From NCBI GenBank assembly GCA_021821045.1, contig JAKACW010000028.1, forward strand, positions 1-55,828: a DNA stretch of 55,828 nt, in the 5' to 3' direction. The translations under genes were made by a program, and so were the position numbers. This stretch comes from Pseudomonadota bacterium (GTDB lineage: Bacteria; Pseudomonadota; Gammaproteobacteria; JAADHS01). Below the pieces are notes generated by a model. It was given only the letters and a program-made list of their open reading frames with translations. It did no database searches and had not been told where the DNA came from. Shown in pieces: positions 2,251 to 15,996 of the stretch (positions within the stretch are counted from its first letter, which is position 1; every line of letters starts with the position of its first letter).

Positions 2251-4806
2251 GTGTGCAATCGAACATCGCCAGTCTCGCCGTCGGCGCTGCAGTACACCCC
2301 AATCAAATCATCGCTTTCACTCTCCACAATCATTGCACCATTTCTCGCAGCCGTGATCCTGTCCGGTTGCGGTGGCGGTGGCGCCAGCAATAAGCAGACT
2401 GACGACGGTAGCGCACCTGCATCCGATTCGCCATCGGTCACCCAGGACGGACGTGCGCCGACAGCCCCGGCGAACCTCACAGTCGTCGCCGCAAGCCCCG
2501 ATATCGTTACGCTCTCGTGGAGCGCATCGCGCGACAACGTCGGTGTTGTTGGCTATGAAATCAGCGCAAGCGATATTCAAATCGGCGAAGTGGACGAAAC
2601 CGGCGTCACGGTGGACGGGTTGAGCGCGAACACCGACTACGCTTTCACTGTTCAGGCCTATGACGCCGCCGGCAATGTTTCGACAGCGAGCGCTCCCTTG
2701 GTCGTCAAGACACCCTCCGCTGACGACGCCAATTCCATTTTGCACACCGGCTTTCCGCGCTTGGGCTTCCCTCGCTTCGGCGGAGGTGGAGGTGGCGGCG
2801 GCGGTGGAACCGCGCCGGTGGCCGGACCGGATACCGCCGCGCCAAGCATTCCTACGGGATTGGCAGCCAGTGGTGTGAGTGCCAATCAAGCCACGTTAAG
2901 CTGGACGGCGGCGACGGACAATGTCGGCGTCGCGACCTACGAGGTTTTCAACGGCAGCCAACTTATGACGCTCACGACCCAGCCCGTGGCGGTTCTAACC
3001 GGACTAGCGCCATCCACAAACTACTCGTTCGCGGTGCAGGCGCGCGACGCGGCGCAAAACGTGTCGGGCCTCAGCGCGGCGGTTGCCGTGACGACGCTTG
3101 CCGCAACGACACCGACACCATCGACACCCAACACTCAAGGCCAGCTGACTTACACCCAATCCTGCGCCGTGTGCCATGGCGCCGACGGCCAGGGAACAGG
3201 GCAAGGCACCGTCGCACCGATCATTGGCGTGACCCGAGCCATTCCGCTTGCCGAACTGACCACGCTCATTGACACAACCATGCCGCCGGGGGACCCGACC
3301 CTGTGCACCGGCGCGTGTGCATCGAGCGTGGCGCAATATGTATCCGACACCTTCATGACCCAGCCCGGCGACGGCACGGAACCGGTCAACTTCACCGAAC
3401 CCCTGGCGGGATTGGCGGAAGGTCCGGAACAGATTGCCGCGCTGTGCAATCGCTTGGCGTTGCTCAATCGCAGCGACGTGGTTCGCGATACGTTCTGCGG
3501 CGCGACGCCTCCGGCGATTAACAGTCTGCGCGGCCTGCAAACGGCGTTAGGGCTGACGTTCAACAACCCCAACGCCACCGGTCGGGGAAACAATGGGGCC
3601 AACGGCAACCCCGGCTTCGCTCTCACCGGGCACTCCAGCTCGCTGGTGGCTCGCTTCGTCAACGCCATCAATCCACGCGCCATCATCTTTACGCCGGCCA
3701 ACCGCTTTGCAGGCGCCCCCGCCGGGTATGTCGCCATGGGCTTTGTGCGCGGCGACCAGTTCGCGGAGATCGCCGCGGCCGACCGCAACAACAACAATGC
3801 GGTGAACTTTTACTTGGTTACCTTCAAACAGGCCTGCAATCTTACCAACACGTGTACGGACGGCGATCTGTTGACGCCCGCCGTCGAGTCCAACTGGCTC
3901 GATGTCACGGTGTACGACGATTCCGATCTGCGCAATACCATTTTCGACTGTCTGCAATGTCACCAGGTCAATGGCCCCGGCACCCAGAAAATACTGCGCA
4001 TGCAGGAACTGGCCAACCCGTGGAGCCACTGGTTCCGCGACAATCGCGCCAGCAACGTCTTGTTGCAGGACTTCCAAGCCGCCCACGGCACCAATGAAGA
4101 TTACGCCGGCATTCCGGCCAACCTGATCTCGGCTTCGGACCCCGCGGAATTGGAGGATCTGGTGCGTGCCGCCGGCTTCGCGCCCCAGCCCAATCAGTAC
4201 AATAGCGGTCGCATCGAGGCCGAAGTGCGGCAGACTGCGGGTCAGCCGGCGGACAACACGACGCCCGGGGTGAGCGCCACCTGGAACGCGATCTACCAGA
4301 ATTCCGTCCAGAGTCAGGCCATCGCGGTGCCCTACCATGACATCAAAGTCACCGACCCGGCTTTGTTGCCGAATTTGATCCAGTCGTACCGCGGCTTCGT
4401 CAACGGCACCTTGTCGGCCCAGGCGCTGCCCGACATTCGCGACGCGTTCTACCAGGCTCAACTGCGCGACATCGGCTTTAAAGTGCAAGCGGGCCTGGAC
4501 GGCGCCGGCATCGTGCGCCAGGCCTGCGGCCAGTGCCACAACTCGCGGCTGGACCAAACCATCGGTCGGGCGCGGTTCAACATCGACCTCGCTGCCATGA
4601 GCGACACCCGCGGCGGCGTGCTCACCGGCGCGGCGCGGGACGCGGAAATCGGCCTGGCGGTAACGCGCATGCTGCTGCCGCCGGAAGACGTGCGCAAGAT
4701 GCCGCCGGAGATGTTCCGCACTCTCGATGCCGCGGAAATAAACTCCGCCGCAGCCTACCTGTGCTCGCAGACGACGACCGCCGTGCCGCAGTGCGCGGGC
4801 CGGTAA
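2251..4806 (+). CDS. Lipoprotein cytochrome c with two fibronectin-III domains and three haem motifs
   Basis: An 851-residue exported protein. The N-terminus is a lipoprotein signal ending in the lipobox LSGC (Cys40), then a Gly-Ser-Asp-rich linker. Two fibronectin type III domains follow (about residues 70-155 and 195-285; both carry the 'DNVGV..YE' and 'LSANTDYAF.VQA.DAAGNVS' signatures), separated by an eleven-glycine run near 177-187. A cytochrome c domain begins with CAVCH near residue 305, and two more haem motifs occur at CLQCH (about 567) and CGQCH (759); the last is followed by a region typical of DUF1588/DUF1595-like cytochromes ('ML.PPEDVRKMPPE'). GTG 2251 is preceded by GGGAGG at ideal distance. 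Predicted to be anchored to the outer membrane, possibly surface exposed; electron partner unknown. It ends next to the convergent four-haem cytochrome gene. Confidence 0.88.
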   Translation: MCNRTSPVSPSALQYTPIKSSLSLSTIIAPFLAAVILSGCGGGGASNKQTDDGSAPASDSPSVTQDGRAPTAPANLTVVAASPDIVTLSWSASRDNVGVVGYEISASDIQIGEVDETGVTVDGLSANTDYAFTVQAYDAAGNVSTASAPLVVKTPSADDANSILHTGFPRLGFPRFGGGGGGGGGGTAPVAGPDTAAPSIPTGLAASGVSANQATLSWTAATDNVGVATYEVFNGSQLMTLTTQPVAVLTGLAPSTNYSFAVQARDAAQNVSGLSAAVAVTTLAATTPTPSTPNTQGQLTYTQSCAVCHGADGQGTGQGTVAPIIGVTRAIPLAELTTLIDTTMPPGDPTLCTGACASSVAQYVSDTFMTQPGDGTEPVNFTEPLAGLAEGPEQIAALCNRLALLNRSDVVRDTFCGATPPAINSLRGLQTALGLTFNNPNATGRGNNGANGNPGFALTGHSSSLVARFVNAINPRAIIFTPANRFAGAPAGYVAMGFVRGDQFAEIAAADRNNNNAVNFYLVTFKQACNLTNTCTDGDLLTPAVESNWLDVTVYDDSDLRNTIFDCLQCHQVNGPGTQKILRMQELANPWSHWFRDNRASNVLLQDFQAAHGTNEDYAGIPANLISASDPAELEDLVRAAGFAPQPNQYNSGRIEAEVRQTAGQPADNTTPGVSATWNAIYQNSVQSQAIAVPYHDIKVTDPALLPNLIQSYRGFVNGTLSAQALPDIRDAFYQAQLRDIGFKVQAGLDGAGIVRQACGQCHNSRLDQTIGRARFNIDLAAMSDTRGGVLTGAARDAEIGLAVTRMLLPPEDVRKMPPEMFRTLDAAEINSAAAYLCSQTTTAVPQCAGR

Positions 4807-5160
4807 TCACTGGCGCAGGTGACACTCGCTGCAAAGCTTGGCCGGCCCACTGGGCCGGCCGGCTTTTCTCTCCGCCAGGTGACACGCGATGCAAACGCTG
4901 TGGAACGCATCCCGACTGTTGGCGGGATCGCGCGAGTCCGCCGTATGGCAAGCGCGGCAACTCCGTTCGATGGGACCATCCTTCACCGTGTGATGACATA
5001 CGCCGCAGCCGATTCCGCGGTGACTCTGGTGGGAGAACTCGACGGGTCCCGGGCGCGAGGGAATCACGATCGGTTCGTTCATCTGCGCGCGGGCCGTATT
5101 GGCGACGGTAGCCGCTAACAAGACCAAACAGCACTGCGTGAACTGTCTCGTCATGGCCAT
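4807..5160 (-). CDS. Periplasmic tetrahaem cytochrome c (class III / c7-like)
   Basis: A 117-residue exported protein: signal peptide (about 25 residues, ending in a TARA motif) and four haem-binding motifs, CGVCH, CRACH, CIACH and CSECH, with extra histidines (FSHQSH, CHH) that can act as distal ligands. The compact His-ligated arrangement matches small class III cytochromes that shuttle electrons across the periplasm. The ATG at 5160 overlaps the stop codon of the preceding 30-residue membrane ORF (TGATG), which indicates translational coupling and decides the start; ATG 5154 is an alternative. It is the last gene of an operon with the ferric-reductase-like flavocytochrome, a likely electron donor or acceptor. 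Confidence 0.88.
   Translation of the reverse strand: MAMTRQFTQCCLVLLAATVANTARAQMNEPIVIPSRPGPVEFSHQSHRGIGCGVCHHTVKDGPIERSCRACHTADSRDPANSRDAFHSVCIACHLAERKAGRPSGPAKLCSECHLRQ
4841..4866 (+). terminator. Possible terminator for the lipoprotein cytochrome, inside the convergent gene
   Basis: GCCGGCCC-ACT-GGGCCGGC is a perfect eight-base-pair hairpin (4841-4859), followed on the plus strand by CGGCTTTTCTC. It lies 35 bases after the stop of the plus-strand cytochrome gene and inside the 3' part of the minus-strand tetrahaem gene. The T-run is short and offset, so this is tentative. Confidence 0.4.
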
Positions 5161-5252
5161 CACAGGTTTTGGCTGAGCGCAAACAACGCGCACAGGCTCA
5201 CCAACAGCACTCCAATGCTCACAGCGAACAGTTTTGCGATCAGGATGCGCAT
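5160..5252 (-). CDS. Thirty-residue single-helix membrane peptide
   Basis: ATG 5252 opens a 30-codon frame, MRILIAKLFAVSIGVLLVSL followed by CALFALSQNL, which is almost entirely one hydrophobic helix with a basic N-terminus. It starts 7 bases after the flavocytochrome stop (GCGAG just upstream) and its TGA shares its A with the ATG of the tetrahaem cytochrome (TGATG). The tight spacing on both sides and the membrane-helix composition argue that it is translated. It could be a small subunit that helps assemble or dock the flavocytochrome and tetrahaem protein, or simply a leader that couples translation. It is not a signal peptide of the next gene because the frames differ. No family recognised. 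Confidence 0.6.
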   Translation of the reverse strand: MRILIAKLFAVSIGVLLVSLCALFALSQNL

Positions 5253-5259
5253 AGCTCGC

Positions 5260-6597
5260 TTAGGCCATTTCGAACAGCTCGGTGTGGATGTGTCGCACGG
5301 AAATGCCCATCCTCTCGAGATCGCGCTCCGCCGCTGCCGTCATGACCGTCGGACCGCATAAAAAATATTCCAAGTCCCGGTAGTTGTCGGGCAAATGGCG
5401 GCGCAAGATGCCTTCGCTCAGCAATCCGCGTTCGCCCGTCCAGTCCGCTGGAGCGTCGTTGAGAATCACGACCAAATTCAACTTGACGCGCGATTGCAGC
5501 GCCTGCAGTTGATCGTAGGCGGTGAGATAGTCCAAATTCTTGTAAGCGTAAAACAACCATACCGGCCGCTCATCACCCCGATCGGCCAGCGTTTTCAGCA
5601 TGCCCAGGATCGGCGCGATGCCCACGCCGCCCGCAACAAACACGTAACCCGGCGCGCCGGGATAGCGATCGATGGAAAATGCGCCGAAGGGGCCGTCCAG
5701 ACAGGCCGCCTGCCCGACCGTGACCTGGGACAGACGAGCCGTGAAGTCGCCAAGCTTCTTTATGGTGAAGCTCAGTCGCTGGGGCTGTTCGGCGCTGGAG
5801 GAGATCGAAAACGGATGCTCGCGCATAGCCAGCGCCGAGTGCCATAAGCAAAGCCAAACAAACTGGCCCGGCAGAAATCGCAAGCCGGCGTGGCCGACCG
5901 GCTCAAGCGTCAACGTCCACGCGTCGCCGCGCTCGGCCTTGATGTCGGCCACCCGATACGGGCGGCGCGAAATTCGCCACGGCCGAACGAGCCGCAGGTA
6001 TAGCATGAGCACAATCCACGATGCGGCAAACGCGAACCACAGCTCGTGCTTCCATGGCGCCTCGATGTAGTAATTCACGCCGACGATGTGCGCCACGGCC
6101 AGGACGATGGCGGTCATCGCCAACAACGCGTGCAGACGGCGCCAGGTATCGTATTCGAGTCCGATATATTTTCGCCAAATCGAGGTCGCGACCTGCAGGA
6201 TCACCGCCAGCAATGCGGCGGCGCCCGCCAGCATATGCCAGGGCGCGTTGGGTTTGAGGTATTCGATCAACAGCGGCTCGACGCCGAGCAAGATCACGGG
6301 GTGGCCCAACAGCAAGACGAATGCAATCAGAGCCACCCAGCGGTGAAAAAAGTAGATGATGTCGATACCGAACGCCCGCGTCGTCCACTGAAACCGCGCT
6401 GTCAGCAGAAACATGGAACCCATCAGCGACAAGGCGGAAAACCCCAGCGCCACCGCGAAATCCCACGCGAACGTGGTTCCCGGCGGAACACTGCCGACCA
6501 GCAACACCGCGAGCGGCGCTAAGATCAGAGCCAGATACGCGCTGGCCCAGAGTGTTCCATGGAAGGCGAAATTAAATGATCGTTCCGCTTGACTCAT
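5260..6597 (-). CDS. Ferric-reductase-like membrane flavocytochrome with FAD/NAD(P) domain
   Basis: A 445-residue protein. The N-terminal half has about six membrane helices of the ferric reductase / NADPH-oxidase type; two helices each carry a pair of histidines 14 residues apart (H85/H99 and H156/H170), the pattern that ligates two stacked b haems. The C-terminal half is a ferredoxin-reductase-type module: FAD-binding HPFSIS near 261-266, nucleotide-binding GGVGIAPI near 323-330, and the CGP motif near 414-416. It should pass electrons from cytoplasmic NAD(P)H through FAD and two haems across the inner membrane. It lies downstream of an exported DUF4412-like gene and upstream of a membrane peptide and tetrahaem cytochrome on the same strand, so a periplasmic cytochrome is a likely acceptor (inference). 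Confidence 0.9.
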   Translation of the reverse strand: MSQAERSFNFAFHGTLWASAYLALILAPLAVLLVGSVPPGTTFAWDFAVALGFSALSLMGSMFLLTARFQWTTRAFGIDIIYFFHRWVALIAFVLLLGHPVILLGVEPLLIEYLKPNAPWHMLAGAAALLAVILQVATSIWRKYIGLEYDTWRRLHALLAMTAIVLAVAHIVGVNYYIEAPWKHELWFAFAASWIVLMLYLRLVRPWRISRRPYRVADIKAERGDAWTLTLEPVGHAGLRFLPGQFVWLCLWHSALAMREHPFSISSSAEQPQRLSFTIKKLGDFTARLSQVTVGQAACLDGPFGAFSIDRYPGAPGYVFVAGGVGIAPILGMLKTLADRGDERPVWLFYAYKNLDYLTAYDQLQALQSRVKLNLVVILNDAPADWTGERGLLSEGILRRHLPDNYRDLEYFLCGPTVMTAAAERDLERMGISVRHIHTELFEMA

Positions 6598-13142: not shown

Positions 13143-13446
13143 CCACCTAAGCACGTCGCGTCTCGGTCAACTAAACTGCGGCCATATAATCAAAACCGCG
13201 ATTCGCTTTCACACGCTGTGACTACCGCTCTCTGTATCACCCGCCGCTGCGCTGCGTAAATTTCCGAGTACAGCTTAAAGCGAGATTTTATTAACGTTAA
13301 TAAAGCGCCGGTTGTGAACGCGACCGCGAGGTCCTTCACCTCATTACAGCGCTGCTTCCCGCCTTCCGGATGTTGCGCGAAGCCGATTGGATTCGGTACG
13401 CAAGTGATTCTTGCGCCCCGTTTTGGGTCCGCGCCAGGGAGGCAGC
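13143..13446. other. Intergenic region upstream of the 35-haem cytochrome gene
   Basis: 304 bases without a convincing gene. It contains the 18-bp perfect palindrome at 13287-13304 and the AGGGAGG ribosome-binding site of the cytochrome gene. I see no clear -35/-10 pair, tRNA or terminator. Confidence 0.6.
13287..13304. promoter_or_regulatory. Perfect 18-bp palindrome, candidate operator
   Basis: TTTATTAACGTTAATAAA is identical to its reverse complement over all 18 bases. It lies 142 bases before the start of the 35-haem cytochrome gene in AT-rich sequence that stands out from the GC-rich surroundings. A dimeric transcription factor site is likely; I cannot name the regulator (the sequence does not match the FNR/CRP consensus). 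Confidence 0.5.
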
Positions 13447-15996
13447 ATGCACGAGCAGAACTTGCGATCGCTTTTCACTGCCACCGTTCTCCTCCTCCTG
13501 CTGACATTACACCCGCCCTTCGCATTCGGCCTCAGTCAAGCGACGACGGCCCATCCCGATTCGATGCAACCCTGCGCAGCGTGCCACGACAATCGCACCA
13601 CGGCAGGCAAGTCGCCCAGACATATGCCCACAACCGATCTGTGTGAAGACTGCCATGTCACCACCGACTGGCTTTCCGTGATGGTGGAACATGCGCAAGT
13701 GCAAGGCGCGTGCGAGCGCTGCCACGATAACCAACTGGCCAGCGGAAAACCGGCGAATCACATCGCCACGACGGCCGGTTGCGACATCTGTCATACCACG
13801 GTGAGCTATCGGGTGGACATGTTCGACCACGGCGCGACAAGTCAATCCTGCGCTGCTTGCCACAATGGAATAACGGCCGAAGCAAAAACGCCTGGGCACA
13901 TCAGCAGCTCTGACCGCTGTGATGCCTGCCACTCGGTGCAGAACTGGACAGTGGCCCGCCTCGATCACGAGGAGGTCAGCGGCGCATGCCAAAAGTGTCA
14001 CGACGGCGTGCTGGCCTCAGGCAAGTCCGCGGCTCATCCCCCCACTTCGGCACCCTGCGACGATTGCCACCAGACGGTAGCCTGGTTGCCGGCATCCGGC
14101 GGCGGCGACTTCACCATCGCGGCAGTCGGCAAGTCGCCGACCCATATTCCCACCAGCGACAAATGCATGGCCTGTCACGGCACCGCCGGCTGGATTCCCG
14201 TGTTGCGAGTCGACCACGCCGAAGTGATTGGCGTGTGTTCGACCTGCCACAACGGCGTCACCGCAGCGGGAAAACCGGCGAATCACCTGCCGACTCAGCA
14301 AGAGTGCGACGCGTGCCACGCCACCGTTGCCTGGCTGCCCGCCGGCTTCGACCACACGGGCATTGCGTCCAATTGCACAGCGTGTCATAACGGCAGCGAC
14401 GCCCGCGGAAGGGCACCAACCCACATCCCAAGCAGCGCGGTATGCGAAGCCTGTCATAACGTCGCGGCCTGGGCGCCCGTCACCCAGGTCGACCACAGTC
14501 AAACCATCGGCGCCTGCAGCGCCTGCCACAACGGCGCCACCGCAACCGGCAAACCTCCAACGCACGTACCCACACAGGCGCAGTGCGACAGCTGTCACGG
14601 GACACAAGCTTGGGTTCCGGCGACGTTCTCCCACAACGGTATCGTCGACAACTGCGTGTCCTGCCACAACGGCGGCGGCGCCGCGGGCAAATCGCCGACC
14701 CATATCCCCACCAGCGACCGTTGCGAGACGTGTCACAGTCCGACCACTTGGACCATTGTCTCAGTCAATCATGACCAGGTGATCGGGCCGTGCAGCGGCT
14801 GTCACAACAACGCGGCGGCGACAGGCAAACCGGTGAACCATGTCGCGACGACCTTCGACTGCGACCGCTGCCACATCACCCTGGCCTGGCGGCCGGCGAC
14901 CTTCGATCATGGCGGAATCATCGACAATTGCGCGTCCTGCCACAACGGGACACAGGCGCGCGGCAAAGCAGTGTCCCACCTGCCGACGACGGACGCCTGC
15001 GAACTGTGTCACTCGCAATTGGGCTGGACACCGCCGGCTTCGGTTGATCACAGCCAAGTCATCGGACTTTGCAGCGGATGTCACAACGGCGTTCGCGCGA
15101 TCGGCAAGCCGACCAATCACGTTCTTACCGCCAGCGATTGCGCCGCGTGCCATACCACCATCACCTGGTTGGGCGCCAACTTCGATCACTCCGGCATCAG
15201 CTCCAATTGCTTTTCCTGCCACAACGGCGTCACCGCCGCCGGTCAGTCGCCGCGCCACGTGCCCACCAGCAATTTCTGCAGCCGATGCCATGTCACCACG
15301 TTCTGGATCCCCGTGATTACTGTCGACCATACCCAGGTGTCCGGGCCGTGCTCCGGCTGTCACAACGGCATTCAAGCGCCAGGCAAACCCGCCAACCACG
15401 TCCCGACCAGCGCCGAGTGCAGCAACTGTCACCGCAGCGATGCGTGGCGCCCCGTGGTCTTTAACCATCAGGGAATTTTTTCCGGTTGTTTCGCTTGCCA
15501 CAATGGCGTCAACGCCACCGGCAAATCACCCACCCATCCACCGAGCACCCAGGTCTGCGAGGGTTGCCATGTGAATTTCTCGTTCTGGCGCCCGGTGTTC
15601 GCCGTGGATCACAATCAAGTGCTGGGGCAATGCGGCGGCTGTCACGACAACGGCACCGCCCGGGGGAAACCCGCCAGTCATGTGCCCACGACGTCGGACT
15701 GCGGCGTGTGCCATTCGACGCAGGCGTGGTTTCCCGCCAGCTTCGACCATGTTGGCATCGCCGGGAATTGCGCCAGTTGCCACAATGGCACCGGCGCCAC
15801 GGGGCAATCGTTCACCCATATTCGAACCACGTTGATTTGCGAGGCGTGTCATACCCCGGCGAGTTGGATCGTCACCGCCGTGCCCGACCACACCCAGATC
15901 CTGAGCACCTGCAGCCGCTGTCACCCGCTGCCGGGCGATCACGACCCGGTCGGCGCGCAAGAGTGCAACCTCTGCCACGACATCAACGGATGGTAG
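13447..15996 (+). CDS. Giant exported multihaem cytochrome c with 35 CxxCH motifs
   Basis: An 849-residue protein with a signal peptide (about 30 residues, hydrophobic LLLLLTLHPPFAF core) and then almost nothing but haem-binding repeats. I count 35 CxxCH motifs from Cys43 (CAACH) to Cys840 (CNLCH), one per about 24 residues. They alternate in two-haem modules of about 47 residues: type A 'CxxCHNGxxAxGKxxxHxPT' and type B 'CxxCHxxxxWxPxxxxDHxxxxx'. The conserved His of HxPT and of DH in each half are good distal ligands, so most haems could be bis-His. One type-A unit is missing near residues 211-238. ATG 13447 is preceded by AGGGAGG. No lipobox or outer-membrane anchor is seen, so it is periplasmic or secreted. 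Likely a long-range electron conduit or store; maturation by a Ccm system elsewhere is needed. Confidence 0.92.
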   Translation: MHEQNLRSLFTATVLLLLLTLHPPFAFGLSQATTAHPDSMQPCAACHDNRTTAGKSPRHMPTTDLCEDCHVTTDWLSVMVEHAQVQGACERCHDNQLASGKPANHIATTAGCDICHTTVSYRVDMFDHGATSQSCAACHNGITAEAKTPGHISSSDRCDACHSVQNWTVARLDHEEVSGACQKCHDGVLASGKSAAHPPTSAPCDDCHQTVAWLPASGGGDFTIAAVGKSPTHIPTSDKCMACHGTAGWIPVLRVDHAEVIGVCSTCHNGVTAAGKPANHLPTQQECDACHATVAWLPAGFDHTGIASNCTACHNGSDARGRAPTHIPSSAVCEACHNVAAWAPVTQVDHSQTIGACSACHNGATATGKPPTHVPTQAQCDSCHGTQAWVPATFSHNGIVDNCVSCHNGGGAAGKSPTHIPTSDRCETCHSPTTWTIVSVNHDQVIGPCSGCHNNAAATGKPVNHVATTFDCDRCHITLAWRPATFDHGGIIDNCASCHNGTQARGKAVSHLPTTDACELCHSQLGWTPPASVDHSQVIGLCSGCHNGVRAIGKPTNHVLTASDCAACHTTITWLGANFDHSGISSNCFSCHNGVTAAGQSPRHVPTSNFCSRCHVTTFWIPVITVDHTQVSGPCSGCHNGIQAPGKPANHVPTSAECSNCHRSDAWRPVVFNHQGIFSGCFACHNGVNATGKSPTHPPSTQVCEGCHVNFSFWRPVFAVDHNQVLGQCGGCHDNGTARGKPASHVPTTSDCGVCHSTQAWFPASFDHVGIAGNCASCHNGTGATGQSFTHIRTTLICEACHTPASWIVTAVPDHTQILSTCSRCHPLPGDHDPVGAQECNLCHDINGW

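Follow-up and report, generated by a model that had tools for sequence, protein, structure and literature searches.

What a single protein with 35 haem-binding motifs does, and where in or on the cell it does it, is the question raised by an isolated gene in the window, that is, the whole 55,828-nucleotide stretch of DNA analysed here. A preliminary description of the locus had presented the product as an exported protein of 849 residues that might serve as a long electron wire or capacitor. Our analysis favours, with a probability of about 0.55, a free-standing relative of the PCC3-type extracellular cytochromes that would conduct or store electrons outside the PCC3 conduit.

The gene and its repeat architecture

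Translation of positions 13447-15996 on the forward strand gave 849 residues followed by a stop, with no internal stops, and both the length and the count of 35 CxxCH motifs agreed with the preliminary description. A wrong reading frame, about which that description had been wary, was not borne out, as the frame was intact over 849 codons and the GC content of the codon positions had the pattern of a coding frame (GC3 0.76 vs 0.57 at the first and 0.56 at the second position). AGGGAGG stands ahead of the ATG; a search for a sigma-70-like promoter of this gene found none. The features of the gene are as follows:

13437-13442, + strand: GGGAGG, probable ribosome-binding site with a 4-nt spacing to the ATG (from sequence)
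13447-15996, + strand: gene of the 849-residue cytochrome with 35 haem motifs (translation, motif count, Pfam, shuffles)
13447-13533, + strand: probable cleavable signal peptide, residues 1-29, LFTATVLLLLLTLHPPFAFG (from sequence; cleavage site judged by eye)
13552-13689, + strand: N-terminal two-haem segment, residues 36-81, without a PCC3-type N-cap (sequence comparison)
13690-13965, + strand: four-haem repeat unit 1, residues 82-173 (motif positions, lag comparison)
13966-14214, + strand: repeat unit 2 with three haems, residues 174-256 (a CxxCH and its His lost)
14215-15888, + strand: repeat units 3-8, residues 257-814, four haems each (motif positions, lag comparison)
15889-15993, + strand: C-terminal two-haem cap, CSRCHPLPGDHDPVGAQECNLCHDINGW (common to the 37- and 73-haem paralogues)

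By its signal peptide, the protein is predicted to be exported. The peptide has no lipobox Cys; no Cys precedes that of the first CxxCH. All 70 Cys residues lie inside CxxCH motifs, and one His stands upstream of each motif (at -7 in 34 cases and at -8 in one), so that a proximal and a candidate distal ligand can be assigned to every haem; the one candidate distal His per motif noted earlier was thus recovered for 35 of 35. Residue shuffles of the protein (n=5000) yielded a mean of 0.48 CxxCH and a maximum of 4, indicating that 35 motifs do not arise by chance. The density is 24.3 residues per haem, and among the window's other open reading frames of 100 residues or more, none exceeds four CxxCH.

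The regular repeat that the preliminary description had recognised was confirmed, but its period of two-haem modules of about 47 residues was not the one that fits best. Unit identity was highest at a lag of 4 (0.48), with 0.345 at lag 2 and 0.24-0.26 at lags 1 and 3, which identifies four haems, or about 93 residues, as the true period at the level of sequence similarity. The layout can then be written as 2 + [4,3,4,4,4,4,4,4] + 2 = 35 haems. The step from motif 8 to motif 9 is 36 residues, compared with about 46 expected; about 10 residues, among them one CxxCH and its His, are gone. We rejected a hidden frameshift at this step, since neither of the two shifted frames restores a CxxCH there and a simple frameshift would therefore not explain it. 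Assembly collapse, which had been named earlier as a finding that would overturn the description, was rejected as well: the gene contains no exact repeat of at least 24 nt, and the DNA copies of the repeat units are 60-82% identical, which makes collapse or inflation during assembly improbable and shows the repeats to be old.

Relation to known multihaem cytochromes

Pfam matches of the protein were limited to cytochrome c domains (c7, c3, doubled CxxCH, and MtrC-like), in keeping with the earlier view of a wire- or capacitor-like cytochrome with no enzymatic domain. Membership in two decahaem families was rejected on NCBIfam scores, which were 128.2 bits vs a cut-off of 192.2 for DmsE/MtrA and 78.8 bits vs a cut-off of 325 for GSU2203. 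A PDB search revealed no convincing sequence relative among solved structures, and no sequence match to the polymeric filament cytochromes OmcS, OmcE, and OmcZ. A hit to chain A of 6r2q, an entry that we take to be the Shewanella MtrABC complex, carried the name cystathionine beta-synthase (E 0.003); we rejected it as an enzymatic domain because the alignment spans CxxCH motifs. AlphaFold2 models built without haem from a shallow alignment had an uninformatively low pLDDT, 29 for the full length and 46 for two repeat units.

Geobacter GSU0702 may also be a 35-haem protein. GSU1996, the dodecahaem "nanowire" of Geobacter sulfurreducens, resembles the window protein in being one chain with many c-type haems for which a wire or capacitor role has been proposed. 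However, its chain is a series of c7-like domains, each with three haems of which one is His-Met (PMC10138318), whereas the period in the window protein is four haems, and the PDB search at E 0.1 gave no GSU1996 match.

The preliminary description knew of no named, characterised protein with this layout; a layout without precedent was not supported, since the extracellular cytochromes of the PCC3 class have the same repeat. Like the window protein, they are exported and consist of A/T/S/G-rich, low-complexity haem repeats with few residues per haem, and the cytochromes encoded beside PCC3 porins share its step of 23-24 residues and its His at -7. In He et al. 2017 (PMC5566968), the PCC3 extracellular cytochrome had 34 motifs at the median and 85 at most, and a study of Gallionellaceae (PMC10734462) gave 10-35 and suggested an elongated, linear molecule that serves as wire and capacitor; the published wire or capacitor role of PCC3-type giant cytochromes is a model. 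We rejected 35 as a record haem number, as 45 motifs had been reported by 2010, 85 were given in 2017, a 2020 paper (PMC7327174) named 113 as the largest number known, and 73 occur in a protein of the same genome; a 2024 survey also reported neighbourhoods with over a hundred motifs. Since both have been published for the PCC3 class, neither the haem number nor the wire idea is new. Judged from sequence and gene order, the count of 35 is ordinary for the PCC3 family, and the unusual part is a stand-alone gene whose product has no N-cap (defined below).

Relatives of the protein in its own genome have 10-73 motifs and are mostly larger, and its repeats are 42-63% identical to those of giant cytochromes on two contigs (C126 and C135). 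Contig C126 carries a complete PCC3 set comprising an inner-membrane protein, a 21-haem cytochrome, four giant cytochromes of the extracellular type beside it (23, 33, 73, and 37 motifs), and a porin homologous to the porins of PCC3 clusters in other genomes. The inner-membrane protein has the HX13H and SGxxG motifs that mark this component of PCC3 (He et al. 2017, PMC5566968). The motif spacing of the periplasmic 21-haem partner is irregular, unlike that of the window protein. As a separate observation, the C126 cluster (L017:4786-18750 and L018:1031-2728 in G000) has four giant cytochromes instead of one, and genes for an L,D-transpeptidase and an M15 peptidase lie among them. C135 carries genes for a further inner-membrane protein, a further porin, and a 41-haem cytochrome, and C136 encodes a 51-haem N-capped paralogue with no porin or 21-haem gene adjoining. 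The relatives on C19, with 14 and 10 motifs, are two probable lipoproteins (L021:3471-6728 in G000) in which an Ig/PKD-like part is followed by the haem motifs; their repeats are of the window-protein type, interrupted by acidic and Gly/Pro inserts.

The genome also contains genes of the cytochrome-c assembly family and four matches to the RuBisCO large-subunit family (C79, C131, C135, and C76), one of them a partial frame, and a search of it for an MtrB/PioB porin found none. With PCC3 and several RuBisCO-family genes but no MtrB/PioB porin, the genome would fit a lithotroph supplied with electrons by an external source.

Terminal caps and gene neighbourhood

Nearly all PCC3-type relatives examined carry the N-terminal pattern FDHxxTGFPLxGxHxxxxCxxCHxxxxFxGTPxxCxxCH, which we term the N-cap. 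It does not appear in the PCC3 papers and was defined in this work; its near-universal presence was judged by pattern matching and by reading of N-termini, in a sample selected for likeness to the window protein. The latter has no N-cap; its repeats begin directly. With the 21-haem protein as query, the region of about residues 420-496 matched the N-termini of several capped paralogues (33-45% identity), and no match to the window protein was obtained, indicating that the N-cap resembles a repeat of the 21-haem cytochrome. From this likeness we infer that the N-cap may dock the cytochrome to a porin or periplasmic partner; against this idea, some N-capped relatives, such as the 51-haem paralogue on C136, have no adjoining PCC3 genes. 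The other uncapped repeat cytochromes are mostly lipoproteins or have Ig/PKD-like N-termini (C19 of the same genome, L078, L114, L115, and L129).

At the other end, the window protein terminates in the cap CHPLPGDHDPVGAQECNLCH, a type (CHxLPxxHxxxxxxCxxCH) also present in the 37- and 73-haem paralogues on C126 and in genomes G306, G323, and G108. Elsewhere this cap is usually followed by a Pro-rich tail, which is absent here. The same two paralogues have the highest repeat-core similarity to the window protein but, unlike it, possess an N-cap, a Pro-rich tail, and a place in a PCC3 cluster. The window protein differs from most PCC3-linked members examined in having no N-cap and another C-terminal cap. 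Its nearest counterpart by layout comes from another genome of the class, G323: a 20-haem lipoprotein (L114:5619-7595) that likewise has no N-cap, the same terminal C-cap, and one skipped haem, but is lipid-anchored (lipobox AAGGC) and shorter and has Pro-rich inserts. Tentatively, and as a possibility to which we give well under even odds, these two cap-less proteins might represent a distinct group freed from the porin conduit, namely, surface or secreted wires or stores made from PCC3 repeats.

The gene is also unlike PCC3 loci in its surroundings, as it belongs to no cluster of porin, periplasmic cytochrome, and inner-membrane protein genes; homologues of the porin, the 21-haem cytochrome, and the inner-membrane protein were sought throughout the 55.8-kb window, and none was found. 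Three redox genes are present upstream:

2251-4803, + strand: tri-haem probable lipoprotein cytochrome (lipobox LSGC)
4810-5193, - strand: tetrahaem class III cytochrome (domain matches)
5263-6597, - strand: ferric-reductase-like membrane protein with FAD and NAD domains (domain matches)

The latter two could possibly provide an electron path from NAD(P)H to cytochrome. The electron-transfer setting invoked in the preliminary description finds loose support: the genes exist, but they lie about 7-11 kb from the 35-haem gene, behind HlyD, FtsX, and ABC-transporter genes on the opposite strand. Genes for an O-methyltransferase and EF-G are located downstream of the 35-haem gene. The product of 2251-4803 contains fibronectin type III domains and three CxxCH motifs, one of which falls within a cbb3-type cytochrome c domain.

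Possible place of action and distribution

In the free-standing reading that we prefer, the protein would be exported by Sec and then have its haems attached by the Ccm system, and it would fold as a long chain of about 35 bis-His haems, either extracellular or periplasmic. This chain could conduct or buffer electrons, linking outside donors or acceptors with the PCC3 conduit or with other surface cytochromes. Having no N-cap, the element whose sequence is like a repeat of the 21-haem partner, the window protein would not itself be the porin-docking subunit, and the missing cap suggests that it acts beside rather than inside the porin conduit.

The same protein might instead be an ordinary PCC3 extracellular subunit that is encoded at a separate locus and docks in trans to either PCC3 porin. 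The shared PCC3 repeat and the C-terminal cap held in common with the 37- and 73-haem paralogues would fit such an arrangement, as would the presence of two PCC3-type porins in the genome, and the 51-haem paralogue on C136 is likewise without a neighbouring porin or 21-haem gene. However, that paralogue and the others of the extracellular type have the N-cap, which is missing here, and we regard docking in trans as unlikely. We give still less credence to a periplasmic electron store of the GSU1996 type, which would buffer electrons exchanged by the inner membrane and the conduits of the outer membrane. The repeats are of the PCC3 extracellular type with no match to GSU1996 (PDB, E 0.1), and the PCC3 periplasmic partner spaces its motifs differently, although a simple signal peptide without a lipobox, together with the absence of an N-cap and of a Pro-rich tail, would suit this location, and monomeric periplasmic chains with 12-27 haems have been described as capacitors (PMC10138318).

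A decaying or silent paralogue, left by the expansion of the giant-cytochrome family, would account for the isolation of the gene, the loss of one haem, and the failure to find a promoter-like site. The intact frame, the distal His at 35 of 35 motifs, and the placement of 70 of 70 Cys in motifs argue against decay; the motifs are intact although the units have diverged widely, pointing to selection on the haem sites, and we consider this explanation improbable. PCC3 cytochromes are widespread. With its PCC3 clusters, giant cytochromes, and a cap-less stand-alone relative, the genome lends itself to testing N-cap function and could show whether giant cytochromes act away from the porin conduit.

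In an even draw of the class, matches to the 35-haem protein at E 1e-60 were found in 29 of 369 genomes, representing 24 of 272 genera. Two other genomes of the same family gave no match, and a plasmid collection gave one distant relative only. Loci in other genomes display a recurring order of 21-haem cytochrome, repeat cytochrome, and porin, and N-capped repeat cytochromes range from about 15 to 133 motifs. The upper figure comes from an open frame of 4086 residues with a PCC3-like N-cap (L061:6976-19233, G219:C17), directly after a 24-haem cytochrome gene. Its 133 CxxCH exceed the 113 called the largest known in 2020 (PMC7327174); since the frame contains exact repeats of over 50 nt, its assembly needs checking. 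Another open frame, of 3306 residues (L120:3888-13805, G108:C131), has 129 CxxCH, an N-cap, and a Pro-rich tail, and the genome that carries it is rich in giant cytochrome genes, with others of 79, 51, and 43 motifs.
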